Origin: Methanoculleus taiwanensis
GTDB lineage: Archaea; Halobacteriota; Methanomicrobia; Methanomicrobiales; Methanoculleaceae
Direction: 5' to 3'
NCBI RefSeq assembly: GCF_004102725.1
Contig: NZ_LHQS01000001.1
Location: forward strand, 849,327 to 913,326
DNA: 64,000 nt
This document shows, in pieces, positions 7,513-27,833 of this stretch. The notes beneath the pieces are model-generated. The model did not search any database. It was not told where the DNA came from and saw nothing but the letters and a program-made list of their open reading frames with translations. Each line of letters begins with the position of its first letter. The stretch's first letter is position 1. Made by a program: the position numbers and the translations under genes.

Positions 7513-7535
7513 CGGGCGGCGGGTGTCGCCGCCCG
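7513..7535 (+). terminator. GC-rich hairpin after tupA copy 1
   Basis: A perfect 9-bp inverted repeat, CGGGCGGCG and CGCCGCCCG, with a 5-nt loop, lies 57 nt after the tupA stop. There is no T-run behind it, so it may be a processing or mRNA-stabilising structure rather than a terminator. Confidence 0.5.
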
Positions 7536-7719
7536 TGGCCGTGACTCCATCTCCTTTGTCCGGAACGTAGCCGGTGCACGCTGTTTACGGCCTTCGCATC
7601 CCCTGGGAAGGTGGAATCTATGATCTCCGCAGGTACTGTCGTGAGCAGATCAGTAAGCTTCCTGCCGGCATAAAGGGGCAAGGAGATTATCTTAACCCTG
7701 ACTAAAACTCTGCGGAAAG

Positions 7720-7729
7720 TTATATATAC
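7720..7729 (+). promoter_or_regulatory. TATA box of tupA copy 2
   Basis: TATATATA at 7721-7728 is centred about 31 nt before the ATG at 7756, so transcription should begin a few nucleotides before the start codon. This implies a separate, almost leaderless promoter for the second tupA. Confidence 0.55.
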
Positions 7730-7755
7730 TGGGTCAATCTTCCCTGACAACTGCT

Positions 7756-8742: not shown

Positions 8743-8811
8743 CAGCAGAAGGGGAGACCTCGGGGGCATAATGGCTGAGAGAGAAAATGCTTGCCGTACC
8801 GGTGAACCCTC

Positions 8812-9516: not shown

Positions 9517-9521
9517 CGCCT

Positions 9522-10640: not shown

Positions 10641-10674
10641 CGATACATGTAGATCTATCACCTGGAGCATGGTT

Positions 10675-11481
10675 ATGAGTCCAAGACGAGAGATGGAGTC
10701 GAAGCTGAAAGGAGAATCGCTGGTGAGGCACGGGTTGATGCGGCGGTATGAGGGGCGGCCGCAGCTCCGGATAGCTCCCGAGCTCAACGTCGTCAAGATC
10801 GGCGGGCATGGCATCATCGACTACGGCGCAGATGTGGTACGGCCGCTTGCCGACGAGATCGGGGAGCTCTCGAAGACATACAAGATGCTCATCGTCACGG
10901 GCGGCGGCGTGCGGGTGCGGCATATCCTCGATCTCGGTCTTGACCTCGGGATGCCGACGGGTGTCCTTGCGGAGCTGACCAGCAAGATCAGCGAGCAGAA
11001 CGCGATCATGATGGCGGTGCTGCTCTCGCAGTACGGCGGCATGCGGATTCACACCGCCGATCTTTTGGATATTCCGATGCTGCTACGGATGGGGATGCTG
11101 CCGGTGACCCACGGGACGCCGCCCTACGGGCTCTACGAGTACCCCCCCGATATCGGGATGATCCCGCCGCACCGCACCGATACCGGAGCGCTCCTCGCGG
11201 CAGAGGTGGTCGGGGCGAAACGCTGCATCCTCGTCAAGAACGTCGACGGCCTCTACACGGAGAATCCCTTTGTCAACTCCGATGCGGAGCTTATCAGGGA
11301 TATCCCGGCGCGGGAACTTCTCGATATGCAGATGGAGGATCTCGTCCTCGAGGAGAAGGTCGTCGAGCTGCTGCTCCATACCAGGAACGTGAAGCAAGTG
11401 CAGATCATCAACGGGCACAAGCCCGGCCTGCTGACGGCAGCGCTCCATGGGGAGAATGTCGGGACGATCATCCGGGCGTAA
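10675..11481 (+). CDS. Molybdenum/tungsten storage protein homologue (amino-acid-kinase fold)
   Basis: A 268-residue protein of the uridylate-kinase-like fold. It matches the Azotobacter MoSto subunits in order: VVKIGGHGIIDYGAD, VTGGGVRVRH, IPPHRTDTGALLAAE, VKNVDGLYTENP, QIINGHKPG and HGENVGTIIRA. MoSto packs polyoxomolybdate or tungstate clusters in an ATP-driven alpha3beta3 cage; here only one gene is present, so a homo-oligomer is expected. ATG at 10675 has GGAG 7 nt upstream. It follows tupC by 34 bp, which supports a Mo/W role rather than UMP kinase. The storage function is inferred. Confidence 0.85.
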   Translation: MSPRREMESKLKGESLVRHGLMRRYEGRPQLRIAPELNVVKIGGHGIIDYGADVVRPLADEIGELSKTYKMLIVTGGGVRVRHILDLGLDLGMPTGVLAELTSKISEQNAIMMAVLLSQYGGMRIHTADLLDIPMLLRMGMLPVTHGTPPYGLYEYPPDIGMIPPHRTDTGALLAAEVVGAKRCILVKNVDGLYTENPFVNSDAELIRDIPARELLDMQMEDLVLEEKVVELLLHTRNVKQVQIINGHKPGLLTAALHGENVGTIIRA

Positions 11482-11588: not shown

Positions 11589-11637
11589 TCAGGGCGAATA
11601 TAGAAGCTATATATTAATGCCCGTTCATGATTTTCTC

Positions 11638-12717
11638 ATGAAAAATATGCGCATATGTGCAATTCTTCTCCTATGCTTCTGCGCTGCTGTCATGATCTGC
11701 GGTTGCACCGGGACATCATCCGAACAGACCTCCCCCGAACAGGGAGCAACCACCGCTACAGCGACTCCTGCAGAGAAGATCCAGGTCAAGGTCTTCCATG
11801 CCGGGAGCCTCACCGGGCCGTTTGAGAAACTGAAAGCAGCATTCGAAGCGGAGTTCCCGAACACCGAAGTGCTCCTCGAACCTGCAGGAAGCGTCGACAC
11901 CATCAAGAAGGTGACGGAGAACGGCAAGCCCGCCGATGTCGTTGCATCCGCCGATTACGCACTCATCCCGAAGATGATGGTGCCCGATCACGCCGACTGG
12001 TATCTCACCTTCGCCAAGAACACGATGGTGCTCACCTACACGAACGACAGCAAGTATGCGGATGAGATCACCGCAGAGAACTGGTATGACGTCCTTGACC
12101 GCGAGGGTGTCAGGTGGGCGTTCTCCGACCCGAACTCCGATCCCTGCGGCTACCGCACGCCGATGGTGATCCAGCTCGCCGAGGCTCACTACAACAACGA
12201 CCAGATCTTTGAGACTCTCCTTGGTGAGCACAGCGATATCACCGTCACCGAAGAGAACGGCACCTACACCATCCACGCTACCGAACCGAACCCCGACAGT
12301 ACGACCCTGACCATCCGGCCGAAGAGCGTCGAGCTCGTGCAGATGGTGCAGTCCGGCGGCCTCGACTACGCCTGGGAGTACCGGAGCGTTGCGGTGCAGA
12401 ACGACCTCGAGTTCATCGAGCTTCCGGCAGCAATCGATCTCTCTGACATCGAGTATGCCGACACGTATGCAACCGTTCAGATCGAGTGCAAGAAAGGCGA
12501 CGGGACGACCATCTATGTGGGCGCTCCCATCGTCTACGGTGTGACCGTCCCCGAGATCGCCGAGCACCCCGAGATGGGTGTTGCGTTTGTCAAGATGCTG
12601 ATTGGCCCCACCGGACAGGCGATCCTGACCGAAGACGGACAGCCCCCGATCGTTCCGGCCGGCGGCTATGGCAGCATACCTGCGGAGCTCACCTCCCTGG
12701 TTGCCATGAAGGCCTAA
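11638..12717 (+). CDS. wtpA: Tungstate/molybdate-binding lipoprotein, WtpA type
   Basis: A 359-residue lipoprotein: signal peptide with lipobox ICGC, a Thr/Ser/Ala linker, then the WtpA domain (VKVFHAGSLTGPFEKLKAAFE, PADVVASADYALIPKMM, SDPNSDPCGYRTPMVIQLAE, GLDYAWEYRSVAVQ). WtpA proteins bind tungstate very tightly with six oxygen ligands. The TATA box centred near 11612 is 26 nt before the ATG at 11638, which points to a leaderless mRNA and favours this ATG over the one at 11617. Followed by wtpB and wtpC. Confidence 0.93.
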   Translation: MKNMRICAILLLCFCAAVMICGCTGTSSEQTSPEQGATTATATPAEKIQVKVFHAGSLTGPFEKLKAAFEAEFPNTEVLLEPAGSVDTIKKVTENGKPADVVASADYALIPKMMVPDHADWYLTFAKNTMVLTYTNDSKYADEITAENWYDVLDREGVRWAFSDPNSDPCGYRTPMVIQLAEAHYNNDQIFETLLGEHSDITVTEENGTYTIHATEPNPDSTTLTIRPKSVELVQMVQSGGLDYAWEYRSVAVQNDLEFIELPAAIDLSDIEYADTYATVQIECKKGDGTTIYVGAPIVYGVTVPEIAEHPEMGVAFVKMLIGPTGQAILTEDGQPPIVPAGGYGSIPAELTSLVAMKA

Positions 12718-12756
12718 AATCCCCCCTTTTTATCACCACAGAGGACGTTTTTACTG

Positions 12757-13626
12757 ATGAAGATGGCAACACTCCTGAAAGACCTCTTTTCACCCGGCGA
12801 GAGCCTGTCTGCCGTATGGCCCCAACGCAGGATCGACTGGTGCATCCTCGGGTTCTGTCTCCTCGGGTCGGTTATCGTCGGCATCACGGTGCTTGCGCTT
12901 GCAAATATCTCGATCACTGAACTTGCCGACCCGGGGCACCTCTTTGAGGTGGCGACGAGTTCTGCGGTGGTCGGTTCGCTCCTCCTGACCTTCGGTGCCG
13001 GTTTCAATGCCGTGCTGCTGCTCATCCTCTTCGGCACGCCGCTCGCCTACGTGCTCGCGCGGTCGCAGCCTTCGCGCACAAAAGAGATGGTGGAGAGCAT
13101 TGTCGATATCCCGCTCATCCTTCCCCACACCGTCGCAGGTCTCCTCGTCTACCTCCTCTTCATGCGAAGAGGATGGCTTGGAGCACCGCTCTCGGAGGTC
13201 GGGATCGCCTTTGAGGACGCCTACCCCGGGACGGTCGTTGCGATGCTCTTTGTGGCATCCCCGTTCTACATCAACACGATGCGGGAGGGATTTTTGAAAG
13301 TGCCGGTGCACCTCGAGAACGTTGCCCGGACACTCGGGGCGACGAGATTCCAGACCTTCTCTCAGGTGACACTGCCCTTAAGTTTCCGGCATATGTACAA
13401 CGGTGCGCTCCTTGCCTGGGGGCGGGCTATCGGCGAGTTTGCGGGTGTCATCATGATCGCCTACTATCCCTTCATCGTCTCGACGCTGATCTACTACGCA
13501 TTCACGACGGACGGCATCAGGACGAGCAGGAGCATCGCGTTCACCGTCATCATCGTCAGCTTTGTTGTTTTCCTGCTGCTGCGGCGCCTGACGCGCTACG
13601 TGGGGAGGTACGATGATCGAGTTTGA
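12757..13626 (+). CDS. wtpB: Tungstate/molybdate ABC permease, WtpB type
   Basis: A 289-residue permease with about six membrane segments and the EAA loop (NVARTLGATRFQTFSQVTLPL then LAWGRAIGEFAGVIMI). An N-terminal 30-residue cytoplasmic stretch precedes the first membrane helix. It lies 39 nt after wtpA with a T-run between them, and overlaps the start of wtpC by 14 bp, so it is coupled to the ATPase. It forms the membrane channel of the Wtp importer. Confidence 0.92.
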   Translation: MKMATLLKDLFSPGESLSAVWPQRRIDWCILGFCLLGSVIVGITVLALANISITELADPGHLFEVATSSAVVGSLLLTFGAGFNAVLLLILFGTPLAYVLARSQPSRTKEMVESIVDIPLILPHTVAGLLVYLLFMRRGWLGAPLSEVGIAFEDAYPGTVVAMLFVASPFYINTMREGFLKVPVHLENVARTLGATRFQTFSQVTLPLSFRHMYNGALLAWGRAIGEFAGVIMIAYYPFIVSTLIYYAFTTDGIRTSRSIAFTVIIVSFVVFLLLRRLTRYVGRYDDRV

Positions 13627-14692
13627 CCGAGTATCGCTGACGCTCGGGCAGTTCGCTCTGAAAGATATCAGCCTGACGATCAACGAGGGGGATTACTACT
13701 TCATCGTCGGGCCTTCCGGGGCAGGAAAGACAGTGATGCTCGAGGCGATCGCCGGGCTCCACCTGCCGGGGCAGGGGCGCGTGCTCCTCCGGGGTGAGGA
13801 TATCACCGCTACGCCGCCGGAAAAGCGGCGCATCGGGCTTGTATATCAGGATTACTCGCTCTTCCCGCACATGACCGTCACCGGCAACATCGCTTTCGGA
13901 CTGCGTCTTCAGGGGTATTCGAAGGAGGAGATCTCCCGTGAGGTGGACGACCTTCTGCAGCGGTTCGGCATCGAACATCTGGCGGATCGCTACCCGCTGA
14001 CACTCTCCGGCGGCGAGCAGCAGCGGGTAGCGCTTGCCCGCTCCATTGCGGTGAAGCCTGATATTCTGCTGCTCGACGAACCGCTCTCGGCGCTCGATCC
14101 GGTCACGCGGGAGAAGTTCATGCAGGACCTTGCGGCTCTTCACCGCGAGCAGCACCTGACGATCGTCCAGGTGAGCCATGAGCGGAGCGAAGCGCGGCGC
14201 CTCGGCACCCGGATGGCGGTCATCATCGACGGCAGGCTCGCCGCCGAGGATCGGGTCAGCGCGGTGCTGAACACTCCCGATCGCCCGGACGTCGCCAGGT
14301 TCGTCGGAATAGAGAACGTCCTCGAGGGCAGTGTGGTTGAGAGCACCGGCGGCCTTGCCGTTATCGATGTATCGGGCATCCGGTTTGAAGCGGTGACGGA
14401 TGCCCGACCCGGGACCTGCGTCTGCCTCTGCGTCAGAGGTCAGGACATCGGCATCGCGCTTTCAGGCAGCCACGCATCAAGCGCCCGGAATGTCTTCTCC
14501 GGAACGGTGACCGGACTTGTCGGCAACGGGCCGCTCGTCGATGTCAGGGTTGATTGCGGTGTGGCAGTGACTGCTCTCCTGACCGAGAAGTCGGTCGACG
14601 ACCTCGGATTAAAACCCGGATCTGCGGTTGTTGTGCTCATCAAGGCAAGCGCTATCCATGTGATCGCCAGAGACTCCGACCTGAAGGTCTGA
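13613..14692 (+). CDS. wtpC: Tungstate/molybdate ABC ATPase, WtpC type
   Basis: A 359-residue ATPase: Walker A GPSGAGKT (residues 33-40), signature LSGGEQQR, Walker [13 protein letters not shown], and a C-terminal TOBE/MOP-like oxyanion sensor ([15 protein letters not shown]...). The ATG follows GGGAGG by 5 nt and overlaps wtpB. It ends directly against the convergent gene at 14693 with no spacer, so the two transcripts must overlap. Confidence 0.93.
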
Positions 14693-15133
14693 TCATTCAG
14701 AGACGGTGCTGTCTTCGCCTTCGATATCCGGGCTGTGCAGCTCTACGGGCGAAAGCCTGCCGCGCATGGTCTGATCCGGGCTTATCTCCATTCTCTTGAG
14801 GAGTTCGGTGAACATCCCCTCACCCAGGATCTCCTCCGCTGCATCGGTGTATCCCTCTTCAATCATCCGGAGTATGCGGGAGGTGCCTTTCGGCGTGGTG
14901 GAGATCCCGATCCGTTCCATTCTGCGGATAAGTCCGTCCTGCTCCATCCCATCGAAGGTCGGGAGGACATAGTAGTGCGGAACCTGGAGGAATTCGGCGA
15001 GCTTCCGGGTCGTGGGGAGGCGCATCGAGACGCCGCCCGGTGCTATACTGATGGTCACGCGGCGATCCACGAAGAGGAGGATTTGTACTGCTGCATCGAA
15101 GAGCTCGTTCTGGTCGGGCATGGTCTTGCTCAC
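14693..15133 (-). CDS. Small winged-helix-like protein, possible regulator
   Basis: A 146-residue protein with no family I can name. Its middle (TTRKLAEFLQVPHYYVLPTFDGMEQDGLIRRMERIGISTTPKG in segments) looks like a winged helix: a helix-turn-helix followed by a beta wing. That suggests DNA binding, and its place between the wtp operon and a second Mo/W-type promoter region makes it a candidate regulator. Start may be GTG 15133 or ATG 15121; neither has a ribosome binding site. It probably shares a transcript with the gene at 15168. Function is a guess from structure and place. Confidence 0.65.
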   Translation of the reverse strand: MSKTMPDQNELFDAAVQILLFVDRRVTISIAPGGVSMRLPTTRKLAEFLQVPHYYVLPTFDGMEQDGLIRRMERIGISTTPKGTSRILRMIEEGYTDAAEEILGEGMFTELLKRMEISPDQTMRGRLSPVELHSPDIEGEDSTVSE

Positions 15134-15167: not shown

Positions 15168-15404
15168 TTACACTGCTGCTGCCGCTCTCATCTCGCCCCG
15201 CTCTTCCTCGGGCATCTCTTCGAGGTAGACGACCTCCGCGCCGACATCTTTTGCGATCTGCTCGAGTTCGGTCTTCCTGAAGTGCACGCTCTCAATTTTG
15301 AAATGCATTTCATCGCCTTTTTCGCCGGTGACGGCAACGACGCGGAACCGCGGCTGCTTTACACCGGTTCCAACCTTCTGGCGCTCACGTACGTAGATCT
15401 TCAT
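15168..15404 (-). CDS. Conserved-looking small basic/acidic protein, function unknown
   Basis: A 78-residue protein, MKIYVRERQKVGTGVKQPRF..., with a beta-rich first half and an acidic end (YLEEMPEEERGE). The start has AGAGGTGA about 8 nt upstream. A TATA-like element on the minus strand at 15456-15464 is placed to drive it, with a short leader. The winged-helix gene follows by 34 nt, so the two likely form an operon. I do not recognise the family. Confidence 0.75.
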   Translation of the reverse strand: MKIYVRERQKVGTGVKQPRFRVVAVTGEKGDEMHFKIESVHFRKTELEQIAKDVGAEVVYLEEMPEEERGEMRAAAAV

Positions 15405-15464: not shown

Positions 15465-15584
15465 CTTTCCCAGGATCCTGCCTGTGCCCGCTGATCTCAA
15501 CTCCTTATATCTGTGGCTGTAATGCAGAAATACGGTGAATTTGCAGTAATTTCAAGCACCGGGGGATTGCCTGCGCTTCATTTA

Positions 15585-15600
15585 GTTAATCGGGTTACAT
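15585..15600 (+). promoter_or_regulatory. Putative Mo/W operator, site 3 (upstream of the TiaS-like gene)
   Basis: GTTAATCGGGTTACAT matches GTTAAY-N4-TTA-N2-T and ends 75 nt before the ATG at 15676. It is part of a wider inverted repeat, AGTTAAT (15584-15590) and ATTAACT (15599-15605), with an 8-nt spacer. Confidence 0.5.
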
Positions 15601-15675
15601 TAACTCAGGAAGGCTTCTTCACGTAAAAGAGCTGATGATAGAGGAAGACAGAGGGTATCCTCCGGAGCAGAGACC

Positions 15676-16374
15676 ATGACCGTATACCTCGGCATCGACG
15701 ACACCGACACCCCCGAATCCCGTGGAACCGGGCGGCTTGCCCGTATGATTGCGACAGAACTCTCCGGGATCTGCCGGATCTCCGGCGTGACCCGGCATCA
15801 GCTCTACGTCCACGACGACATTCCGTATACGTCGCACAATAGCTGCGCCGTCCTCCATATCGAGGAGGTAGAGAACGGATCCGTCCGGGAGATCTTCACC
15901 GCTGCCCGCGAGCTGATCCTCGCAGACTTTATTGAAGGGAGCGACCCCGGTATCTGCATCGCTCCGGAGAACCAGGTACCCGACCATCTGCTCTCGTTTG
16001 GGCTGCGGGCAAAGAGCAGCGTGGTGACACAGGACGAGGCGCGCCACCTCGCCCGGCAGGCAGGCATTACGCTTGAAGGGCTCGGCGGCACGAACGGCGG
16101 CATCATCGGAGCTCTCGCCGGGGTCGGTCTCGCCGCCTCCCGGAACGATGGGAGGTTCGTTGTCCGCGGATGCACGCGAGACCTCAAAGGCTGCCAGACC
16201 GTTGCGACGCTCCTTGGCGGCGGCGTCGACAGCGTCATGACCGCCGATGGGATACACGTCACCGAGGGTGTCGTCGAGATCCGCAAGTTCCCAAAACCGG
16301 CCCTCCGGCAGGGGCGGGCGGTGCTCTTCGTCGAGGATGCCGGCGGCGTCTACCGCGATCTTGTGGTCGGGTAG
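15676..16374 (+). CDS. Short TiaS-like protein (GIDDTDT nucleotide-binding domain)
   Basis: A 232-residue protein beginning TVYLGIDDTDTPESRGTG, the signature of the kinase-like domain in TiaS, which puts agmatine on tRNA-Ile2. It also has GLGGTNGGIIGALAGVGL. True TiaS is about 420 residues with C-terminal OB-fold and zinc-ribbon domains, and these are absent here, so it is probably a paralogue of different function. ATG at 15676 has GGAG about 9 nt upstream. The Mo/W-type element at 15585 suggests it belongs with the neighbouring uptake genes. Substrate unknown. Confidence 0.75.
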   Translation: MTVYLGIDDTDTPESRGTGRLARMIATELSGICRISGVTRHQLYVHDDIPYTSHNSCAVLHIEEVENGSVREIFTAARELILADFIEGSDPGICIAPENQVPDHLLSFGLRAKSSVVTQDEARHLARQAGITLEGLGGTNGGIIGALAGVGLAASRNDGRFVVRGCTRDLKGCQTVATLLGGGVDSVMTADGIHVTEGVVEIRKFPKPALRQGRAVLFVEDAGGVYRDLVVG

Positions 16375-16459: not shown

Positions 16460-17446
16460 TCATCCGAGCGGCTGCGGCCACCCGTCCCTGCCTTTCTCGA
16501 AGGCCTCCAGCATGAAGGCAACGAACGAGGCGGCCTTCTCCGGATGCTCCGCCGTCGCCGGGACGGTCAGGGCATAGACGATGGGCGCTCCCGTTCTGAG
16601 GCTCCCGATGGAGCCGAACCGCTGAAATCCGAGCTGCACCGTCACGTTCCGGTAGGTATCCGTATAGGCGGCGCTCGAGAGATCGATCTCCGGCGGGAGG
16701 TTGATCGAGGAAAGGCCGTGGGCGTCGGCCACGCTCCGGTACTCGAAGGCGTAATCGATACCGCCAGCGTCGAGGAGCGAGAGGAGGTAGATGGATCCGT
16801 CCCGGATCTGCACCTTCCCGTCCGATGGCCGCAGCACCTCGGGGAGCGTGATCGCGACAGTTCCGCCCGACCGGTTCACGGCCGGCCGGGGATCGAGGTG
16901 ATCGCCGATGATTGCGTCAAAGAGCGCCCTGTTCCCGTAATGTTCTTCGGCGAGTGCCGTCACCATCAGCGCCCGGTAGCCGCACGCGTCGAGCATCGGA
17001 TTGGAAAATCCCACCCTGACATCCGGCCGGGCGAGAATGGTATACCAGTTCTCGCGTGTGATCTCATCGGCATACAGGCTCTTTTCGGTGTAGGCGATCA
17101 CCATCTCATTCGTTGCGAACGGCGTGCAGGTATCGGTATAATTACCGCTCCCGTCTTCCATCGGGCGGAACATCATATCCGGTATCAGCGATGCATCCGC
17201 CACCGCCACGACGTCGACAGCCCGGTGCAGATCGGTGACCTGCCTGACCGCCTGGATGCTCCCGTGTCCCTCGACCCGAACGTCGACGCCGGGATGCAGG
17301 TCTTCGTAAGCCGCCTCGATCTCCTCCAGGGGGCCGAGCAGGCTGCCTGCCGGTACGACGCGGAGTTCCGTGACCCTCTCCTCTCCCATGCAGCCTGCCG
17401 TCAGAACCAGCAGGACGGCACAGAGCATGAGCAGCACTGTCTTCAT
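16460..17446 (-). CDS. Orphan WtpA-like oxyanion-binding lipoprotein
   Basis: A 328-residue lipoprotein (lipobox LTAGC) with the WtpA pattern: RVVPAGSLLGPLEEIEAAYE, VDVVAVADASLIPDMM, FSNPMLDACGYRALMVTALAEEHYGN, GGIDYAFEYRSVADAHGL. It is clearly related to the wtpA gene at 11638 but diverged. No permease or ATPase gene is next to it; it is the last gene of the secreted-protein operon, 3 bp after the preceding stop. It may feed WtpBC or act as an oxyanion carrier for the surface proteins. Oxyanion choice is inferred. Confidence 0.88.
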   Translation of the reverse strand: MKTVLLMLCAVLLVLTAGCMGEERVTELRVVPAGSLLGPLEEIEAAYEDLHPGVDVRVEGHGSIQAVRQVTDLHRAVDVVAVADASLIPDMMFRPMEDGSGNYTDTCTPFATNEMVIAYTEKSLYADEITRENWYTILARPDVRVGFSNPMLDACGYRALMVTALAEEHYGNRALFDAIIGDHLDPRPAVNRSGGTVAITLPEVLRPSDGKVQIRDGSIYLLSLLDAGGIDYAFEYRSVADAHGLSSINLPPEIDLSSAAYTDTYRNVTVQLGFQRFGSIGSLRTGAPIVYALTVPATAEHPEKAASFVAFMLEAFEKGRDGWPQPLG

Positions 17447-17449
17447 CCG

Positions 17450-18004
17450 CTACCGCCGGTGCACCTCGACCCGGTCGACCCACTTCACCCATGAACTCCC
17501 CTCGGTGATGACGTCGGGGCTCTCGGTGATGATGACGATCCGTAAGGGTCCGCCCTCCTCGTAGGTGAGCGGTCTGCCATCCTGCTCGTAGGCCAGAATA
17601 ACCCTGAGAGGCGGCGCCGGGATCTCGCGGAGGTTCTCATCGAAGGTAAAGAACCCTTTTCCTCGCACCTGATCGGTATCAAAGACCCAGAGATACCCGT
17701 CTTCGGCGGAGACATAGACGAGGTCATTCTCGTCCACCCCGCCCGCCATCAGAGCGAGATCGGCGACGAGCACCCCCCGGTACCGGTTCGGCCCGAAGGT
17801 GATCCCGACGGTGGAGACTGCATACCCGTATCCCTCTTCGGCGGGCAGTGCCCGGAGCTCGGCGAGCGTGAGCACCTCTTCGGTATCGCCGGCAACCGTG
17901 AGGTTCCAGGCTATCTGCTCCCCGGTTCCGCTTTCGCTTGCTCCCATGCACCCGCAGATGCAGACGGCGGCGGCGAGCAGGAGGATAGATACAATGCGCA
18001 GCAC
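17450..18004 (-). CDS. Lipoprotein with a sulfite-oxidase-fold domain lacking the Mo-ligating Cys
   Basis: A 184-residue lipoprotein (lipobox CICGC). The mature part resembles the oxidoreductase molybdopterin-binding domain: LAELRALPAEEGYGY, RYRGVLVADLALMAGG, VYVSAEDGYLWVFD, PLTYEEGGPLRIVI and WVKWVDRVEV. All Cys residues lie in the signal region, so it cannot hold molybdenum through the usual Cys ligand; it may bind a pterin or protein partner instead. GTG start at 18004 follows GGAGGTGA by 6 nt and sits 6 bp after the previous gene. Confidence 0.8.
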   Translation of the reverse strand: MLRIVSILLLAAAVCICGCMGASESGTGEQIAWNLTVAGDTEEVLTLAELRALPAEEGYGYAVSTVGITFGPNRYRGVLVADLALMAGGVDENDLVYVSAEDGYLWVFDTDQVRGKGFFTFDENLREIPAPPLRVILAYEQDGRPLTYEEGGPLRIVIITESPDVITEGSSWVKWVDRVEVHRR

Positions 18005-18010
18005 CTGCCG

Positions 18011-18844
18011 TCACCTCCTGCCGAGGAAGAGACCCGCTGCGCCGATCGCCAGGAGTGCCGGCAGCAGCGAGAGGGGTGTCTCGACGTTCCCGGCAGTGGT
18101 CGCATCGGCAGAGGCTGTGGTGCCCTGGAGCGACTTGACGAGCGCACTTCGCTCACCCTGGTAGCCGCCCTCGTAGACCCTGACCTCGTCCACCCACTTC
18201 ACCGACAGGCCGCTCGTGGAGGGGAGCAGGTCATAGAAGTGCTGCGCGGCCTCCGGCAGCGTCTCGTACATATCCTGGTTGCCGTAGACGTGCAGGCCTT
18301 CCGCATTCGTCGAGTTGTCGGCGAAGAACGTAAGCCGCATGCCGTTGTAGAACTCCGGGACGTAGCCGGTGCCCTGGCGCTCGCCCGCTCCCGTCTCGTC
18401 GCCGTTGTACCAGGTGATCCCGATCGGCCCCTGCCGGGGATCGGGCTCATAGACGTTTTCGTAGACGAACTCGACGTGGTAGCCGTCGGCGGCCTTCACC
18501 ATCACTTCGTCGCCGGGCTCTGCGCCGCCGACCAGTTCGGCGAGATCGCGGATGTCGGTGCCCTTCACGGCACCCCGATCCTTAAAATTCGCCGTCTCGT
18601 TCGGATCCCACTTATCCCCTTCGAAGATGGGCCCCTGGTGGTAGTAGTGGGTCACGCCGTCCCCGAGCACCGGGAGGTTCTTCTCCATCCAGCGGTAGTC
18701 CACTGTCGTTTCGTTCAGGATCGTCGTTCCGTCGCCCGCAATCTTCACCACGTGAAGTTCGGTAGTGGGCGCTGCCGCCGCCGCACCCGCCGCTGCCAGC
18801 AGGAGCAGGGCGACCGCGAGCAGTCGTGTCGGTAGTGATGCCAT
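18011..18844 (-). CDS. Secreted membrane-anchored protein with divergent sulfite-oxidase-fold domain
   Basis: A 277-residue protein: signal peptide (1-25), a domain of about 210 residues, a Thr/Ala linker and a C-terminal membrane anchor ending FLGRR. The domain (VDYRWMEKNLPVLGDGVTHYYHQG in part, GAVKGTDIRDLAELVGG, VKAADGYHVEF, GLSVKWVDEVRVYEGG) recurs in the genes at 18884 and 22654. The last strand, VKWVDEVRVY, matches the sulfite-oxidase-fold lipoprotein next door. It has no Cys. It should face the outside. Function unknown. Confidence 0.8.
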   Translation of the reverse strand: MASLPTRLLAVALLLLAAAGAAAAAPTTELHVVKIAGDGTTILNETTVDYRWMEKNLPVLGDGVTHYYHQGPIFEGDKWDPNETANFKDRGAVKGTDIRDLAELVGGAEPGDEVMVKAADGYHVEFVYENVYEPDPRQGPIGITWYNGDETGAGERQGTGYVPEFYNGMRLTFFADNSTNAEGLHVYGNQDMYETLPEAAQHFYDLLPSTSGLSVKWVDEVRVYEGGYQGERSALVKSLQGTTASADATTAGNVETPLSLLPALLAIGAAGLFLGRR

Positions 18845-18883
18845 AATTGTGTCAGTCTCCAGTATCTGTTCGTCTTTACTTTG

Positions 18884-21202
18884 TTACGCCTCTTCGAGCG
18901 CCACAGTGCACCCGGCCGTCGCCCCCGGCGTCACGACGACATTTTCGATAGTCCTGCTCTCCGTCTCGCCGACGACCTTCACCGCGTACGTGCCAATCCG
19001 CATCCCCGGAAAGGTGTGCGGGGTCGTCTCCCCGGTATAGCGGCCGTAGAGGTAGATCTTCGCCCCCGGTGGGGTACTGTTCACGCTGAGCGAGCCGCAA
19101 GGGTATTCGGTCAGGCTCGATCGGATCGTCCCTGCCGCTCCTGCCGGGGCACCCTGCGGGATCGTGATCCCGCCTTCTGCCGGGAGGTATCCGGGCAGCG
19201 AGAGGGTGATTGTGTGCCTCCCTGAAGATAGGTCGCGGGCGACGGCGGGCGTCCGGAGGCCGGTGGGGTATCCGTCGACAAAGATTAGCGCTCCCGGCGG
19301 GTTGGAGACGACCGTGACGGCGTACGTCTCCTCCGCCCCGGGCATTGCGGCGAACCGCCCCCCGTCCGAGATGGTGTCGGGCAGCGTGATCGAGCGGTAG
19401 GTCGTATTCTCGCGGATGGTGATCCAGGCTCCACCGCCGTCGATATCGACCGTCGCCGGCAGGGTATACGCCGGGTACGCTCCGTTGACGGTGAACGCCG
19501 CCCCGGCAAGGTCGGAGCTTTCGACGGTGATCGTCCGGAGGTGCCGGTTCTGGATACCGTCGATACGGACGGGGGTGACGGCGTCGGGATAGACCCACAC
19601 CCGGTGCGTCCCGTAGTCGACGCCGGTATCTGCGGCATCGATGCTGCTCGCGGATTCGTACTCGAGGGCGATGGTGTGGAGCCCTTCGCGGAGCCCGTAT
19701 ACCACGAATGGGGTGTTCCGATCGATCCGCGTGTTGTCGACGGTGATCGCCGCACCCTGCGGGAAGGAGTCGATGAAGAGTCCGCCGGAGCGGTTCGCAC
19801 GAACCGGTTCGGGCGTCACGGCCGGTGCTGCTGCCGGGGTCTCCGGCAGTCTGCTCTTCACGGCAGGTTCCGGCAGGTCTTCGGGCGTCCCGGCCGGAGG
19901 TTCGGTTTCATCCGTCCCTCCGGTGATGAGTGAAGCGATGAATCGGAAGAGCGCGAAGAGCGGATCGAAAAGCCCTGGCGAGGCCGGGGCCGGCGTCGCG
20001 GTCGGTGTGGGAGAGGTCGTCGCCGTGGCCGCAGGCGCCGTCGCGGTAGCCGGGACGGTTACGGTGAGCGATGTCGTCGGCAGGGGTTTTGACCCGTTCT
20101 GCGACATGAGGACCAGATCGACGGGGGTCGTCTCATCCGCCTCGATGGTAACTGTCGTGGTGCCGTTCTCATACCCGTCCCTGACGAGGGTGATGGTGTG
20201 CTCCCCGACCGAAACCCCCTTGAGGGTCGTATCGGTCACGTTCCCGGTCTCGTTCCCGTCGAGGATGATCCCCGCTCCCGTGGGCAGGGAGGAGACGGCG
20301 ATGCTCCCCTGTAGCGGGAGAAGGGCGAAGGTAATCTGCCCGGTCTCAAGCGCTTTTACCGTGACCCACTGTTCCGGATCTGCAGCGTAGCCATCCTTCT
20401 CCACCCAGATGGAGTGCGATCCGACCGCAAGGTCGCGGATCGTGCAGGGGGTAAGAAGGCCGGTGTTCTCGTCGTCGAGATAGACGAGCGCCCCCGCAGG
20501 GTTTGACTCGACCTCAAGCGCTCCGGTCGCCTCCTCCTCGCTGAAGATCGCGACCTCACTGACATACTGTGCGGACAAGCCCGTCGTTGTCGGCACATTG
20601 GGTTGGAAGAAGTACCAGTACTCAGAATCGAAACATTCCTGCATATCGGCGACGCCGAAGGCGTGGAGACCGTCGGGGTTGACGGAGGTGTCCGCAAAGA
20701 AGACGAGCCGCATCCCCTCCCGGTAGTCGGGAACGTACCCCTCGTCGGCACGGTACCAGGTAATGACCATCGGTCCCTGCCTCGATTCGGGTTCGTAGAC
20801 GTTCCGGTAGGGGAAGGTCTTTGAAAATCCGTCGGATGCCTTCACCCTGACGGTCTCGCCCTCCGCCATCCCGCCGACGAGGTCGCAGAGATCGGCGAGG
20901 TCGGTTCCCTTCACCGCGCCCATGTCCTTCTCTTTGACGTTGGTATCCTCTGCAGGGTTCCAGGGGTCGCCGGAGAATACCGGCCCCTGGTGGTAGTAGT
21001 GCGTCTCCCCGTCCCCGAGGACGGGCAGGTTCTCCTCCATCCACCGGTAGTCGACGGCCGTCTCGGCAAGGACGGTTGCCCCGTCGGCGGCGTAGCGCAC
21101 GACATGCACCTCCGTCGTTGCGGCGCCGGCGCTCCCCGGGATGAGGATGCAGAGGAGCAGCAGCACACTGGCCGAAAGCCGGAACAGAGCATGTATCCGC
21201 AT
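18884..21202 (-). CDS. Secreted protein: sulfite-oxidase-like domain plus five PEGA repeats
   Basis: A 772-residue exported protein. After a signal peptide (1-28), residues about 29-230 match the domain of the 18011 product. Then come PEGA repeats, surface beta domains of the form VESNPAGALVYLDDENTG: two before and three after a Thr/Pro/Ala linker that includes FALFRFIASLITGG, possibly a membrane segment. A sixth repeat is degenerate. The ATG at 21202 has GGTGATC upstream; a longer form from 21337 is open but unlikely. PEGA domains usually mediate cell-surface contacts. Confidence 0.85.
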   Translation of the reverse strand: MRIHALFRLSASVLLLLCILIPGSAGAATTEVHVVRYAADGATVLAETAVDYRWMEENLPVLGDGETHYYHQGPVFSGDPWNPAEDTNVKEKDMGAVKGTDLADLCDLVGGMAEGETVRVKASDGFSKTFPYRNVYEPESRQGPMVITWYRADEGYVPDYREGMRLVFFADTSVNPDGLHAFGVADMQECFDSEYWYFFQPNVPTTTGLSAQYVSEVAIFSEEEATGALEVESNPAGALVYLDDENTGLLTPCTIRDLAVGSHSIWVEKDGYAADPEQWVTVKALETGQITFALLPLQGSIAVSSLPTGAGIILDGNETGNVTDTTLKGVSVGEHTITLVRDGYENGTTTVTIEADETTPVDLVLMSQNGSKPLPTTSLTVTVPATATAPAATATTSPTPTATPAPASPGLFDPLFALFRFIASLITGGTDETEPPAGTPEDLPEPAVKSRLPETPAAAPAVTPEPVRANRSGGLFIDSFPQGAAITVDNTRIDRNTPFVVYGLREGLHTIALEYESASSIDAADTGVDYGTHRVWVYPDAVTPVRIDGIQNRHLRTITVESSDLAGAAFTVNGAYPAYTLPATVDIDGGGAWITIRENTTYRSITLPDTISDGGRFAAMPGAEETYAVTVVSNPPGALIFVDGYPTGLRTPAVARDLSSGRHTITLSLPGYLPAEGGITIPQGAPAGAAGTIRSSLTEYPCGSLSVNSTPPGAKIYLYGRYTGETTPHTFPGMRIGTYAVKVVGETESRTIENVVVTPGATAGCTVALEEA

Positions 21203-21255
21203 GGGGGGGATCACCGGCGTCCTGCTGAAGCATTCTGAAAAAGAGGCATGGGAGA

Positions 21256-22641
21256 TTATCTCCTGCGGAGGAGGAAGAACAGCCCGAGCGCGAGCACCGG
21301 TACCCAGGTTGGGACGGGGATCGGCAGCGGGAACCACGATCCGCCGGAAGCGGCCGTCGTCGTCGGTACCGCCGTTACGCCCGCAGCGGTCTCTTTCGGC
21401 GAGGTGGTCGGGGCGGCTGTCGGTTCACCGGCGGCGGGTGTGCTCACCGGCGTGGCGACGGTCGCTTCGGGGTTGTAGTCAAAGCTCGATTTGGCAGTTG
21501 AACCTCCGCTGCTGCTTCCCGAACCTCCCGAGCTCGGCGGTGTCGTCGGCGTGGGGCTGACCGTGGACGTCCCGATGAGGGCGAAGATCGAGAGGCCGTT
21601 TGGTGATGCGGCCTCGAAGACGTAGTTGCCGGAAGCATCGGTGCCGATGAGCGTCGTCGCAAGAGCGCTTGTGGTGCCGTCATCGGCTCTGCGCATGATC
21701 ACGACCTTCTCCGTCCCGCCGACCGCCGTTACCCAGGCAGGACTGACGGCCATTCTGATTGTCGCGGCCGTGATGACGCCGCCGTCACCGGCGTTCGCGA
21801 TGTTGCTCTTCTGGATGTTCATGACGTATGCGATATCCGTGATACCGCTTCCGGACTGCTGGGCGGTGAGGAGGAACGCACTCTGCGCCGCAGGGTCGGG
21901 CTCTCGTGCTATCGTCGTCGTAAGCCGTGCATCGGACGGCGGCAGTTCGCTCATGTTGAGTGCGATCTCTGCCGCCGCCGTCCCGACAGTGGCATCGACA
22001 TTCGCCGTCACGGGACTGCTCCGTGCGGTCACTCCGGTGACGGTTCCGGTGACGGTCGTCTCCCCGACCGCGGGCTCGCTCCCGGTCTCGATGACGATCT
22101 CTTCCCAGCCGCCGCCCACATCCTGCATCACGATTTTGTTGCCGCTGGTTGTGACGTTGGCTGTAGTTCCCTGCCGGTCGATCGTCACCTGCTGCGCACC
22201 GCCTGCCGTATTCGTCTGAATGCCGCCGGGGGCGAAGGAGCAGTCGCCCGATCCGATCGGGGTCTCTGCATCGTCGCCACCGCTCCCGGTGGCGAATGTC
22301 AGATCGAGCATGCGGGCGTCACCGGATACGTAAGTGATCTCCTGGGCAGCCTGGTCGCCGCCGATCCAGAATGTAACCGTTGGCGCGTCGGATGCGACGA
22401 GATCGAACTCCGTAGCCCGTACGATGAGGCGGTTTGCAAAGGTGCCGGGCTCGGTGAGGGCGAAACGCCCGCGTTCGTTCCAGTTGATCTTGGCGACGAT
22501 GACGGTGCCTGCCGGAGCATCGGCGCCGTCGATGGCGGCGGTTCCCGAGTACTGTGCAGGAAGGACCGGCATCGGTTCGGCTGCCGCCGCTCCTGCCAGC
22601 AGGAGCAAAAGAAATAGTGTGATGATTGGTCTCGCATCCAT
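21256..22641 (-). CDS. Surface protein with PGF-pre-PGF-like domain and C-terminal anchor
   Basis: A 461-residue protein: signal peptide (1-21), beta-rich body, then VVIMRRADDG...NYVFEAASPNGLSIFALIG, which resembles the domain that precedes PGF-type sorting signals in methanogens. It ends with a Ser/Gly/Thr linker and the tripartite tail WFPLPIPVPTWVPVLALG plus RRR, as in membrane-anchored surface proteins. The first residues after the signal may form an ARCHAEA-type cohesin-like beta domain, but this is weak. It follows the 22654 gene by 12 bp and precedes the PEGA gene by 53 bp. Confidence 0.8.
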   Translation of the reverse strand: MDARPIITLFLLLLLAGAAAAEPMPVLPAQYSGTAAIDGADAPAGTVIVAKINWNERGRFALTEPGTFANRLIVRATEFDLVASDAPTVTFWIGGDQAAQEITYVSGDARMLDLTFATGSGGDDAETPIGSGDCSFAPGGIQTNTAGGAQQVTIDRQGTTANVTTSGNKIVMQDVGGGWEEIVIETGSEPAVGETTVTGTVTGVTARSSPVTANVDATVGTAAAEIALNMSELPPSDARLTTTIAREPDPAAQSAFLLTAQQSGSGITDIAYVMNIQKSNIANAGDGGVITAATIRMAVSPAWVTAVGGTEKVVIMRRADDGTTSALATTLIGTDASGNYVFEAASPNGLSIFALIGTSTVSPTPTTPPSSGGSGSSSGGSTAKSSFDYNPEATVATPVSTPAAGEPTAAPTTSPKETAAGVTAVPTTTAASGGSWFPLPIPVPTWVPVLALGLFFLLRRR

Positions 22642-22653
22642 GGTTATCGCTGC

Positions 22654-25600
22654 CTAAGAGGCGATTGCTGCCAGTTCACCGCTTCCCCGCAGGTACACCC
22701 AGTAGCCCTTGCCCGGAAGCATCGCTCCCGTGTCGGCATGTGAGCCTGAGCCGCCGCGGATGATGGCGGTTTCATACTCCTGATTGCCGGCGTCAAAGCC
22801 GAGCACCTGTGTCCATATGTCGCCGAGGGAGAGGAGGGTGTCGCGTGCCGCTGCGGGTTCGGTGTCGGTGAACCCGATTGCGTTCCAGCCCTTATACAGG
22901 TTCCCGGTCGGCGGCGTCTGCAGGGGCTCGTCACTGAAGATGAGCGAGACGTTGCAGGCGGCTGCCGAGTAGACCCAGTACGCCGCGAGCGGTCTCAGGG
23001 TATCGGTCGTCTGGACTTCCTCCCAGTACTTTATCGCTGCATTGTACTGCCAGATACTGTGGTTTGCTGTATCGACTCCGCTGAAGATCGCAGCGGTGTT
23101 ATGGCCGGATGCAAGCCGCTTTGGGATGGAGATGAAGTTCCAACCCTGCTCTAAGGAGAGCTCCGCATCGGCGGGGACCGGGAGATCGATCAGGGCGATC
23201 TCGTCGATGCTCCCGACCTTCTGCTTGTTGCTCGTCAGTGCTGAGCCGACGAGTTTCAGCGGCCATGACGGCTTGTCGCCGTCTGCAGGGAGCGGGGCGC
23301 CGTCTATCTCGTTCGCGACGATGATGTTGTTGTTCAGTTTGATGAGACTGCTTGCGAAGGTCGCGGAGAAGTCGTCATCGGTGCCCTTCACATTGTCGGG
23401 GCCGTAGTCGATGACGACGACGTTGTAGCCGATATCGGCGAGTGTTTCGTTGAAGGGGTTGGTGCCGTAGTCGTGTTTGTTGGTATCGTCGACCCAGCCG
23501 ACGAGGAGCCATAGCGGCATCCCCGACCATTCGTTTCCGTCGGCGTCGGTGTAGGTCGCTCCGTGGCCGCCGAGAGCGCAGGCCTTCCCTGCCTCGAAGT
23601 ACGAACGGGTGATGGTGTCGGTGATAGCGCCGGAGAGGATGAGGTTCCAGTCCTCACGTGCACCGGGGTGAATCTCGACCGTGACGATATTCTTGTTCGC
23701 GATTCCGGCAGCGGACGGATACTGAATGCCGCCGCTCCAGTAGTAGTGCCAGTAATCTTCCGCGAGGCATGCCCGCATATCGTCGGCCCCGAAGATGCCG
23801 TCGGGGGCGTTGAAGAAGAGGCGGATCCCGTCGCGGTAGTCGGGGACGTACTCGTCGTCCGCCCACCATGCCAGGATAGCCTCGCCCTGCCGGTCGAGTG
23901 GTGTGTAGATGTTTGTGTAGTTGAGCTTTGCTTCGTAGTTGTCGGAAGCTATGAGGACGATCTCGCTGCCCTCGGGCGCTCCGCCGACGAGGTCGCAGAG
24001 ATCGGCGATGGACGTGCCCCGGACGACGTTATCGACTTTACCGGGGTTTTTATCCTCGGCCGGGTTCCAGAGGTCGTTCGGGTCGAAGGTCGGGCCCTGG
24101 TAGCGGAGACGGACACCGTCGGCGCCGCCGATGACGGGGAGATTCTCTTCCATCCACCGGTAGGTCTTCTCTGTCTGATTCAGAATTGTCTTGCCGTCAG
24201 CGGCGTAGCGGATGATACGCACCGAGGGCAGATCGGTCGGCTCCTGGAACGCCGTCAGGGCGATCTTCTCGATGTTGCCGACGCTCTTGCTGCCGGGCGC
24301 TCCCTCACCGACGAGGCGGAGCGGGAACGCTGTCCCGGTGATGGCGGAGCCGTTTACTTTGTTGGCGACGATGTACTGGTTCTTGTTTGCTACGATCTCC
24401 TGGCTGGTGAACTCCTTGCTGTAGGGAGAAACGCCACCCGAGGAGACGATAACCGTATAACCGGTGCTTGCGAGGTTGTCGTTGAAGGCGCCCGACCCGT
24501 GCATGACGTCGTCGTCGACCCAGCCTGCGAGGTACCAGAGCGGGACGCCCGTCCAGGTGGAGACGCCGTCGTTGTAGGTCGCGCTGTGGCAGGCGGCTCC
24601 TTCTTCAAACTCGGTTTGTGAGATGACGGCGGTGATTGCAGGTCCTTCGAGGGTGAGCGTCCACTCGCCCTCTTCAGGGCTACCCGGGAGATCGACGAGG
24701 GTGATCGAGGCGATGTTGCCGACCCTCTGTTTGCCGCTCGTCAGCGCAGAGCCCTGCAGTTTCAGGGGGTAACCGTCATCGTTCCCGAGCGGGGTGGCGT
24801 TCAGCTTGTTCGCGACGATGTAGGCGTCGCTCTCTGCGATATCGGCGCTATTCAGGGTGACGGTGTAGCCGTCTTCGGCAGTAACGTTGATGGTGTATCC
24901 TCCGGCCGCCAGCGTATCGTCGAACGTCCAGTGGTTCGAGGTCTCGATATCGTCGACGACGCCGACAAGGTACCAGAGCGGCATTCCCGTCCAGACACGG
25001 TCACTGCTGTCGGTATAGGCTGCAGCGTGGCCGCAGGCTATGCCTTCCTCGAACTCTTCCTGGGTCAGGGTGCGGGAGAACTTCCCGTTCAGGGTTATCG
25101 TCCAGCCGTCGGACGGTTCCGGGAGCCCGACGAGTTCGATCTCGACGACGTTCCCGACCTTCTGGCCTGAGGTCACATGTTCGCCGATCATCTGGAGCGG
25201 CCAGCAGGGTTTTTCCTTCTCCCCGATGACCGCCGGGAGCGGTTCGCCGTTCAGCGTGTTCGCGACGATGATCGCATTGTCACGGGCGACGCTGGCACTC
25301 TCGAAGTTGACGCTGTAGCCGTCGCCGGCCGTGACTTTGATCGAGTAACCTTCGGCGGCGAGATCGTCGTTGAACGCCCCGGCACCGTGCTTCTGGTCGT
25401 CGTCGACCCAGCCTGCGAGGTACCAGAGCGGGACGCCCGACCAGACGTTGCCGTCACCGTCGGTGTAGGTGGCAACGTGGCCGCAGTCGACCGCATCCTC
25501 GAAGTATGCCTGGTCGATGGTGTCGGTCAGGGCACCCTTCAGGGAGAGCGTCCAGCTCTCGGGCTCGGCAACCTCGATTGTGATGCCGACCATCGCGGTG

Positions 25601-26520
25601 GCGGTCTCGGGGGCGACGGGCTTTGTGCCGAAGTAGAACTCTACCTCGTCGCCTTCCTCGAGGGTATAGAGGTTCAGGCCGTCGGTGGCGGGACTGTTCC
25701 AGTCATCGAGGGCGACATCGTTGACGTAGCAGACCCACGTGGTGCCGGCTGCTTTGTCAAAGAGGTGCTCGCCGATGCCGTCGATGAGCAGGATGCCCTT
25801 GCTGTCGTAGGACTTATTATTGACGATATACAGAAATCCTTCTGCATCGGCGACGGCGTCGAGCGCTCCGAGCGGGGTGAGCGTGTTAACAGTATACTCT
25901 GCTCCCGAGGATGCAGTGCAGGTGAAGGTGCCGTCTTCAAGCGTCACCGTTCCGTCGTACAGGACATCCATCCCTTCGTTGACCGAGACGGTGATATTGA
26001 TGAGGGCGGTTGCGTTCTCCGGGGTAACGCCGTTTCCTCCGTAGTAGAAGACGACTTCGTCGCCGTCGACGAGTCCGTAGACGTCGACACCCTCGGAGGC
26101 ATCCGCAAATCCGTCGAGCGGATCGCCGTTCACCATGTAATACCAGGAATCGCCTCCCTTGACGTAGACGTAATCACTGACATTATCAAGGAGGAGAAAA
26201 CCGTTCGAGAGCTTCTTTTTGTCCCCGACGACGTAAGTGAACCCTTCGGCATCGGCGACGGCATCGAGCGCTCCGAGCGGGGTGAGGCGATCGACGGTAT
26301 ATGCACTGCCCGATGACGCGGTGCAGGTGAACGTTCCTTCGGTCAGCGTCACCGTATCGTCAAAGAGCACGTCGGCAGCAGCACTCCCGACGACACTGTT
26401 CTCCGGGGCGTACGGTTCGACCGAAAGCCCGGAATCGGCTCCCGCTACAGGCACGATGAGGATCATCAGTGCGAGCAGCACCGTTAAGCAGATCACTTTA
26501 TTTTCCCTCAAATGTATCAT
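22654..26520 (-). CDS. Large secreted multidomain protein: DUF4430-like and sulfite-oxidase-fold repeats
   Basis: A 1288-residue exported protein and first gene of the operon. Signal peptide 1-27; two DUF4430-like domains (about 35-160 and 165-290; such domains occur in cobalamin-binding proteins); three sulfite-oxidase-like repeats with a conserved Cys (about residues 346, 495, 643) before WSGVPLWYLAGWVDD; one domain like the 18011 product (about 750-930); a fourth Cys-bearing repeat (about 979); and two C-terminal GWNFISIP/GWNAIGFT units. No membrane anchor. ATG 26520 follows AAGGTGAG by 7 nt and is preferred over 26571. Substrate and cofactor are unknown. Confidence 0.85.
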   Translation of the reverse strand: MIHLRENKVICLTVLLALMILIVPVAGADSGLSVEPYAPENSVVGSAAADVLFDDTVTLTEGTFTCTASSGSAYTVDRLTPLGALDAVADAEGFTYVVGDKKKLSNGFLLLDNVSDYVYVKGGDSWYYMVNGDPLDGFADASEGVDVYGLVDGDEVVFYYGGNGVTPENATALINITVSVNEGMDVLYDGTVTLEDGTFTCTASSGAEYTVNTLTPLGALDAVADAEGFLYIVNNKSYDSKGILLIDGIGEHLFDKAAGTTWVCYVNDVALDDWNSPATDGLNLYTLEEGDEVEFYFGTKPVAPETATAMVGITIEVAEPESWTLSLKGALTDTIDQAYFEDAVDCGHVATYTDGDGNVWSGVPLWYLAGWVDDDQKHGAGAFNDDLAAEGYSIKVTAGDGYSVNFESASVARDNAIIVANTLNGEPLPAVIGEKEKPCWPLQMIGEHVTSGQKVGNVVEIELVGLPEPSDGWTITLNGKFSRTLTQEEFEEGIACGHAAAYTDSSDRVWTGMPLWYLVGVVDDIETSNHWTFDDTLAAGGYTINVTAEDGYTVTLNSADIAESDAYIVANKLNATPLGNDDGYPLKLQGSALTSGKQRVGNIASITLVDLPGSPEEGEWTLTLEGPAITAVISQTEFEEGAACHSATYNDGVSTWTGVPLWYLAGWVDDDVMHGSGAFNDNLASTGYTVIVSSGGVSPYSKEFTSQEIVANKNQYIVANKVNGSAITGTAFPLRLVGEGAPGSKSVGNIEKIALTAFQEPTDLPSVRIIRYAADGKTILNQTEKTYRWMEENLPVIGGADGVRLRYQGPTFDPNDLWNPAEDKNPGKVDNVVRGTSIADLCDLVGGAPEGSEIVLIASDNYEAKLNYTNIYTPLDRQGEAILAWWADDEYVPDYRDGIRLFFNAPDGIFGADDMRACLAEDYWHYYWSGGIQYPSAAGIANKNIVTVEIHPGAREDWNLILSGAITDTITRSYFEAGKACALGGHGATYTDADGNEWSGMPLWLLVGWVDDTNKHDYGTNPFNETLADIGYNVVVIDYGPDNVKGTDDDFSATFASSLIKLNNNIIVANEIDGAPLPADGDKPSWPLKLVGSALTSNKQKVGSIDEIALIDLPVPADAELSLEQGWNFISIPKRLASGHNTAAIFSGVDTANHSIWQYNAAIKYWEEVQTTDTLRPLAAYWVYSAAACNVSLIFSDEPLQTPPTGNLYKGWNAIGFTDTEPAAARDTLLSLGDIWTQVLGFDAGNQEYETAIIRGGSGSHADTGAMLPGKGYWVYLRGSGELAAIAS

Positions 26521-26614: not shown

Positions 26615-26648
26615 ACTTAATCTAATTAACCAACTTAATTTGATTAAC
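26615..26648 (-). promoter_or_regulatory. Tandem putative Mo/W operators, sites 4a and 4b
   Basis: Read on the minus strand, 26648-26633 is GTTAATCAAATTAAGT and 26630-26615 is GTTAATTAGATTAAGT. Both match GTTAAY-N4-TTA-N2-T and are 18 bp apart, a little under two helical turns, so two protein dimers could bind side by side. They sit about 10 bp upstream of the TATA box of the secreted-protein operon. Confidence 0.6.
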
Positions 26649-26903
26649 CTGCCCGTGCGGCGCCAGGGGGCTTCGATATTGCTGGAAATGCGGATTCCGT
26701 TCCGATTATGCCGTATCTGGGTGGTGCCGCCCTTCGGTGTGCTGCCGTCAGTCCCGGGAGGCCGCTCCGTATCAGGCTTCCCGCGCTTAAGAGTGCCTGC
26801 GAGAGCTCCCCGGTGACCGCATCCGTGGAGTCCGACCAGATCGGGTCGGAAGAGAGAACGCTGCAGTGCCGGCAGTGGAATATGTTCTGCTAAAAATGTG
26901 GAA

Positions 26904-27008: not shown

Positions 27009-27566
27009 TCACACCCGCCGCTCGCCCACTTCCTTCATGAGCCCGTCCATCCATGCGGGAACCCGCACTTCCGTTTTCGGGAATTGAGCAGGGACGTAGG
27101 GTTTGATGTCGACGACGGGGCTGCCGTCGACGGCGTCGAGGCCGGCAACCTCCAGCACGTTCTCCCGCCTTGCATGCAGCCGGACGACGGTCATAAGCAC
27201 GGGGTTCGGACGGGCAGGGCTGCAGGTTGCATAGATCCCCACCTTCGGGATATCCGTCCTGCCCATCGGGTGCACATGGGTGAGCGACCGGCTATCCTCC
27301 GGCACTTTATGCCCCCAGTACAGCACCATGAGATGAGAATACTCCTCGATACCGTCGAGCACCCCGGTACAGTCCTCGCTGAAGACGATCTTCGTGATCG
27401 CCCCGCTCGTGCTGCGGATATGATCCATACTTGCGTCATGCCCTTCCCGCATCGAGATGCCGTCCCTGTCGGCGACGAGGAAAGGCTGCTGTACTGTGCT
27501 GTGGACGGTCCCCACGGGGCGCAGGGTTATGGCCGTACCGATTGAATCGGGTGATGGTCTGTGCAT
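27009..27566 (-). CDS. TrmO/YaeB-family protein, copy 1
   Basis: A 185-residue protein of the family that includes TrmO, the SAM-dependent methylase acting on N6-threonylcarbamoyl-adenosine 37 of tRNA-Thr. Signatures: RPVGTVHS, EEYSHLMVLYWGHK, ATCSPARPNPVLMTVVRL, GLDAVDGSPVVDIKPYVP. The ATG at 27566 has GGAGA about 8 nt upstream; the much longer open frame from 27788 does not look protein-like before this point. A second family member lies inside the mod operon (46526). Both copies border Mo/W-linked genes, so a role outside tRNA is possible. Confidence 0.85.
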   Translation of the reverse strand: MHRPSPDSIGTAITLRPVGTVHSTVQQPFLVADRDGISMREGHDASMDHIRSTSGAITKIVFSEDCTGVLDGIEEYSHLMVLYWGHKVPEDSRSLTHVHPMGRTDIPKVGIYATCSPARPNPVLMTVVRLHARRENVLEVAGLDAVDGSPVVDIKPYVPAQFPKTEVRVPAWMDGLMKEVGERRV

Positions 27567-27833
27567 GATAGTTCTCCGAAGTTCTCTCGACGGATAGTTC
27601 CGCCGTCGGGTACGTAAGCAATTCATGGTTGTATCACTACCGGATGTGGCAATGTGTCCCTGTCGCTGTTGCTCTGTGGAGCTTCCTACCAGCTTTTCCG
27701 GGTGAAAATCTGCGTTTTGCCGGATTTCAGGCCTTATGGCAGGATGATATGGGTTCATTTGCCATAACGGGAAATATTTTTGGTTCAATTGATGAATACT
27801 AATGTCTAAGCAGCCCGGAGAATCAAATCGCGT

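Follow-up and report, generated by a model that had tools for sequence, protein, structure and literature searches.

The window analysed here, a 64-kb stretch of DNA, carries on its minus strand, at positions 16460-26520, a compact six-gene operon (A-B-C-D-E-F) encoding exported proteins. The genes are separated by 12 bp (A-B), 53 bp (B-C), 39 bp (C-D), 6 bp (D-E) and 3 bp (E-F), and, on inspection by eye, A, C, D, E and F each begin with a likely signal or lipoprotein peptide, with a similar start in B. These features agree with an earlier sequence-only reading of the locus, which had described six close minus-strand genes coding for exported proteins throughout.

Gene A (22654-26520, minus strand, as are all genes of the operon) encodes a secreted protein of 1288 aa with two DUF4430-like (transcobalamin-type) domains, five sulfite-oxidase-like (SUOX-like) domains and a C-terminal GWN domain. 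Within approximate limits, repeat alignment placed four short SUOX-like repeats at 25126-25563, 24691-25125, 24217-24687 and 23161-23640; a single SUOX-like domain of the type found in D lies at 23641-24216 and the GWN domain at 22657-23160. PF00174 matches A over three stretches (56.9 bits; cut-off 24), and DUF4430 matches with 27.6 bits (cut-off 23.8), where one stretch alone passes and the first copy is assigned from the sequence repeat. Gene B (21256-22641) encodes a 461-aa surface protein with a C-terminal membrane anchor, whose position is kept in relatives. Its earlier description as a PGF-type protein holds by similarity, but its score against TIGR04213 (PGF_pre_PGF) is 21.7 bits, under the cut-off of 28. 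Gene C (18884-21202; 772 aa, secreted) combines an N-terminal D-type SUOX-like domain, matched using D as query, with PEGA domains (193.7 bits over five stretches). Gene D (18011-18844; 277 aa) consists of a cysteine-free SUOX-like domain and a C-terminal membrane anchor, gene E (17450-18004; 184 aa) encodes a lipoprotein whose one SUOX domain (PF00174, 49.4 bits; cut-off 24) is without the Mo-ligating Cys, and gene F (16460-17446; 328 aa) is a lipoprotein of the tungstate/molybdate-binding WtpA type. Four proteins with SUOX-like domains, as previously proposed, are thus found: A and E through PF00174, and C and D through the D-type domain and a profile match between D and E. In a Pfam scan of C and D, their SUOX-like domain gave no match, PF00174 included.

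The promoter element and neighbouring Mo/W transport genes

Upstream of gene A, the two predicted copies of a promoter element, GGTTAATYWRATTAAG, were recovered at 26616-26649 on the minus strand, and the motif has 8 matches in the window compared with 0.39 expected in shuffles. A strict motif pattern gave a single genome-wide match, the site at 15580, and a matrix was therefore used instead. This matrix was trained on eight A promoters from other genomes with the window excluded, and its background maximum among 15 Markov shuffles was 13.3. The best match (score 30.5; 15580-15605, minus strand) lies between a TiaS-like gene and a 78-aa gene adjoining wtpABC, followed by the operon promoter itself (29.1 at 26620), a site ahead of a modA-trmO-modB-modC operon (24.0; 45563-45588, plus strand) and a weaker site ahead of a tup-like operon (15.6; 6415-6440, minus strand). 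The promoter of wtpA itself scores under 14. No known Mo/W gene adjoins a similarly weak site at 51396 (16.2), and other AT-rich stretches of the window (e.g., 63482-63743) gave no matrix score. In 447 kb of related sequence, strong sites occur almost entirely at A promoters or Mo/W genes, and weaker ones at Dpp-type clusters of two genomes (G018 and G019) and at a related cluster in L055. Matches to A promoters in the training genomes arise by construction; those in the window, in L037 and L049, and at sites other than A promoters are independent. The claim that the element is common to Mo/W uptake genes was thereby borne out for the wtp-side cluster and modABC, and less strongly for tup.

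Three sets of transport genes accompany the operon in the window. The tup-like operon (6494-11481, plus strand) encodes two TupA-like binding proteins, a permease and an ATPase, and ends in a gene (10582-11481) whose product is homologous to molybdenum storage protein (E 5e-58 to subunit beta, PDB 2ogx). It is followed by wtpABC (11617-14692, plus strand), comprising a binding protein (TIGR03730, 399.6 bits), a permease and an ATPase. The modA-trmO-modB-modC operon (45648-48892), downstream of its plus-strand element, likewise includes a permease and an ATPase, and its modA scores 79.5 bits against TIGR01256 (cut-off 62.5). No CbiO/CbiQ-type transporter was found near the operon, the annotated window neighbours being of the tup, wtp and mod types (part of the window genes were scanned). 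Within the window, no permease or ATPase gene belongs to F itself, and the wtpABC set about 1.8 kb away is its probable transport partner.

The TiaS/methanogenesis-marker-11-like gene (15676-16374) and the 78-aa gene (15168-15404), whose shared intergenic region holds the best motif site, recur beside Mo/W genes.

Conservation in relatives and the binding protein F

Co-occurrence across methanogens, which the sequence-only reading had put forward as a check, was evident. The D family is present in 93 of 232 Methanomicrobiales genomes (26 of 40 genera), and the complete A-F operon recurs within the family and is missing from about half of the family's genomes. In public named genomes, about 43 of the 44 D loci that could be used have D-E-F intact, by a hand count in which some loci come from genomes already sampled. 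Hosts include Methanogenium, Methanolinea, Methanoregula, Methanospirillum, Argoarchaeum, Methanophagales and Methanosarcinaceae bins, alkane-oxidising archaea among them. Many copies of the operon carry an extra phosphoesterase gene of the calcineurin/purple-acid type between C and D, which is absent in the window. An open-access literature search returned no description of this operon, which is not proof that none exists.

The relatives also provide a genomic link between F and the Wtp permease. In nine loci of the named-genome set, and in L087, L095, L096 and L102, wtpB-wtpC come directly after F; their best NCBIfam families are WtpB and WtpC, yet with scores under the strict cut-offs. The description of F as an orphan therefore holds locally, where no wtpBC adjoins it, but not in several relatives. 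In two Methanolinea loci (L135:1900-3849 and L140:1863-3812), a 649-aa TupA-WtpA fusion lipoprotein, with domains checked in the L140 copy, is encoded upstream of C-D-E-F-wtpB-wtpC on the same strand. At the genome level, wtpB occurs in 12 of 12 D-bearing family genomes versus 8 of 12 without D (completeness at least 94%), a weak association with a one-sided p of about 0.05. The Mo/W-capture reading is well supported because F is elsewhere a WtpBC-type binding protein and because the promoter element is common to tup, the wtp-side cluster and modABC.

A second type of cluster was observed in G018 and G019 (L044, L045, L053), where D-type proteins occur with PKD, PEGA and NosD surface proteins. 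It adjoins genes for an SBP_bac_5 binding protein and a Dpp/Nik-type permease, and the promoter motif is present there in a weaker form. Since the D-type proteins of these genomes pair with Dpp/Nik-type transport, the association of such surface proteins extends beyond oxyanions.

The assignment of F as WtpA-like was upheld, as it passes the TIGR03730 WtpA model with 326.4 bits (cut-off 242.75) and its PDB matches, MA_0280 (E 3e-67) among them, are homologues of WtpA and ModA. F nevertheless forms its own clade apart from WtpA, with support of 1.0 in a comparison that held only four WtpA sequences. In WtpA, tungstate is held by two carboxylates, Asp160 and Glu218 (PMC10221389). The ligand Asp and both oxyanion-loop Ser residues are kept in 61 of 61 F sequences, whereas the Glu218 position, placed by residue spacing in PDB alignments, is Ser in all 61, so that the two-carboxylate arrangement of WtpA is not found in F. 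The canonical WtpA of the window likewise has Ser at this position. The Glu of an L-E-x-G motif was considered as the WtpA Glu ligand and rejected, since the distance between Asp and Glu agrees instead with the R-S-x-E motif. In addition, F has an invariant GHGSIQ loop that is absent from the WtpA sequences compared, and its ligand may therefore differ from that of WtpA. Judged from these residues, F probably binds an oxyanion-like Mo/W species, perhaps with a coordination unlike that in WtpA.

Fold and motifs of the SUOX-like domains

The structural comparison with sulfite oxidase that had been suggested earlier gave, for E and for domains of A, predicted folds related to PF00174. The predicted structure of E (pLDDT 79, pTM 0.74) matched, in Foldseek, SUOX enzymes (sulfite oxidases) and PruR pterin-binding proteins. 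The A model is weak overall (pTM 0.33); its individual domains match sulfite oxidase and PruR, and the model, which includes a D-type domain, has recurrent SUOX-like secondary structure. PruR proteins are the best size-matched structural neighbours of both E and A, with TM scores by target of 0.63-0.70 for E. Profile comparison of D with E matched their core (94% probability, E 1e-7, 36 columns), which reads KGT..DL..GG..GDE..A.DGY..F. Against the PDB, phmmer gave no useful match for D and chance matches only for A.

D contains no cysteine, and mature E retains only the lipid-anchor Cys (from the lipobox cluster at residues 15-19); both are therefore unable to ligate Mo in the manner of SUOX enzymes. 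In the repeats of A, an aligned Cys is present in 46 of 52 and a His in 52 of 52, the search pattern having favoured His; some repeats lack the Cys, and its equivalence to the Mo-ligating Cys is putative. The operon thus shares the PF00174 fold with sulfite oxidase and MsrP (YedY), but differs in that D and E lack the Mo-ligating Cys and no catalytic partner is present.

One parallel is PruR, which binds pterins, has the SUOX fold but no Mo-ligating Cys, and is partnered by the c-di-GMP enzyme DcpA (PMC13259868). E is similarly a small exported SUOX fold lacking this Cys, and its invariant D-G-Y at 102-104 is reminiscent of Asn/Asp102 and Tyr104 of PruR (PMC13259868), the positional equivalence being putative. 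Unlike PruR, however, the partner here is an ABC binding protein, and no DcpA-type GGDEF/EAL gene was found among the operon proteins scanned. Another parallel is offered by the SLBB/transcobalamin-like surface proteins surveyed by Burroughs et al. in 2007, some of which are fused to sulfite-oxidase-like domains, as in Syntrophomonas. These were proposed to scavenge B12 together with transporters of the CbiO/CbiQ type, the archaeal members having a distinct metabolite as their ligand (PMC1796856). Common to both are secreted DUF4430-type and SUOX-like domains near transporters and predicted ligand scavenging, whereas the present operon is linked to WtpA/WtpBC and to a Mo/W regulon. This Mo/W context suggests what the distinct archaeal metabolite may be.

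Proposed surface capture of Mo/W and competing readings

Taken with its promoter and the F-wtpBC operons of relatives, the A-F operon is probably a Mo/W-regulated system for the capture and relay of molybdenum/tungsten at the cell surface. Secreted A and C, together with anchored B, would form an outer receptor layer, in which the SUOX-like and DUF4430 domains would bind the incoming ligand, either free or complexed Mo/W. Anchored D and lipoprotein E would then hold the ligand at the membrane, and F, as a WtpA paralogue, would hand on Mo/W as the oxyanion to WtpBC, in this case presumably the permease encoded by the neighbouring wtpBC, acting in trans. Induction of the operon would be expected under Mo/W limitation. 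Of the two functions suggested in the sequence-only reading, Mo/W capture is sustained by the F-WtpBC linkage and promoter sharing, and an extracellular enzyme is disfavoured, given the absence of Cys in D and, lipid anchor aside, in mature E. The best reading is a variant of Wtp-type uptake, in which a surface layer is added to a Mo/W importer that depends on a binding protein. The resemblance to WtpABC lies in the above-cut-off score of F against the WtpA model and in the wtpBC genes directly after F in several lineages; the differences are the separate clade, GHGSIQ loop and Ser for Glu218 of F, and its tie to exported SUOX-fold proteins.

Formylmethanofuran dehydrogenase of methanogenesis needs Mo or W, and trace-metal supply alters methanogen communities (PMC5160323). 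The conserved exported set and F probably help the cell to gather scarce molybdenum or tungsten via the Wtp importer, and a surface Mo/W receptor, if confirmed, would explain how these archaea compete for these metals. A large group of surface proteins labelled with a molybdopterin-oxidoreductase domain would also gain a function, and the SUOX fold would have been recruited a second time for binding instead of catalysis.

Several other readings were weighed. It is rather doubtful that the SUOX-like, PEGA, PGF and DUF4430 domains are purely structural, forming a ligand-free scaffold that positions a WtpA-type binder in or under the S-layer. Domains of this kind are widespread as long repeats in the surface proteins of archaea, and Ig/cadherin-like repeat proteins are also among the Foldseek matches of the A model; however, the near-invariant pocket-like motifs of E and D, which in E are DGY, GGPLR and VKW, exceed the needs of a scaffold, with GGPLR and VKW of E aligning with the plant sulfite oxidase region GFPLR...VKWLD. 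The scavenging of environmental Mo/W-pterin cofactor or its fragments appears unlikely; here, the Cys-less SUOX-like domains would bind the pterin, the phosphoesterase co-encoded in many relatives, the window excepted, would process it, and F would give Mo/W to WtpBC. No dedicated archaeal uptake route for cofactor-bound Mo/W is known to us, and cofactor scavenging, if true, would be the first.

It is quite unlikely that F and its partners import another ligand, either a different oxyanion or a metal complex (a corrinoid bound through DUF4430, for example), and share no more than their regulation with Mo/W uptake. The fixed GHGSIQ loop and lost Glu218 of F, the Dpp/Nik-type transporter of related clusters and the phosphoesterase gene of many such operons would fit this reading, as would DUF4430, which we take to be a member of the transcobalamin-like clade of the Burroughs et al. 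survey; the TupA-WtpA fusion, the wtpBC operons and the motif common to tup and modABC, however, indicate Mo/W. Finally, an extracellular sulfite-oxidase-type Mo/W enzyme, for which the PF00174 matches and the Cys/His pair kept in the A repeats would speak, appears highly improbable and was dropped, as D, mature E (lipid anchor aside) and certain A repeats lack Cys, and neither a CxxCH heme motif among the listed cysteines of the operon proteins nor an electron-carrier gene in the operon was seen.

Among other genes of the window, a winged-helix-like protein encoded at 14693-15133, found near Mo/W genes also in the relatives L037, L046, L089 and L095, is a candidate regulator of the shared promoter element. 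TrmO-type genes lie at 46484-47032 within the modABC operon and at 27009-27788 just upstream of A.
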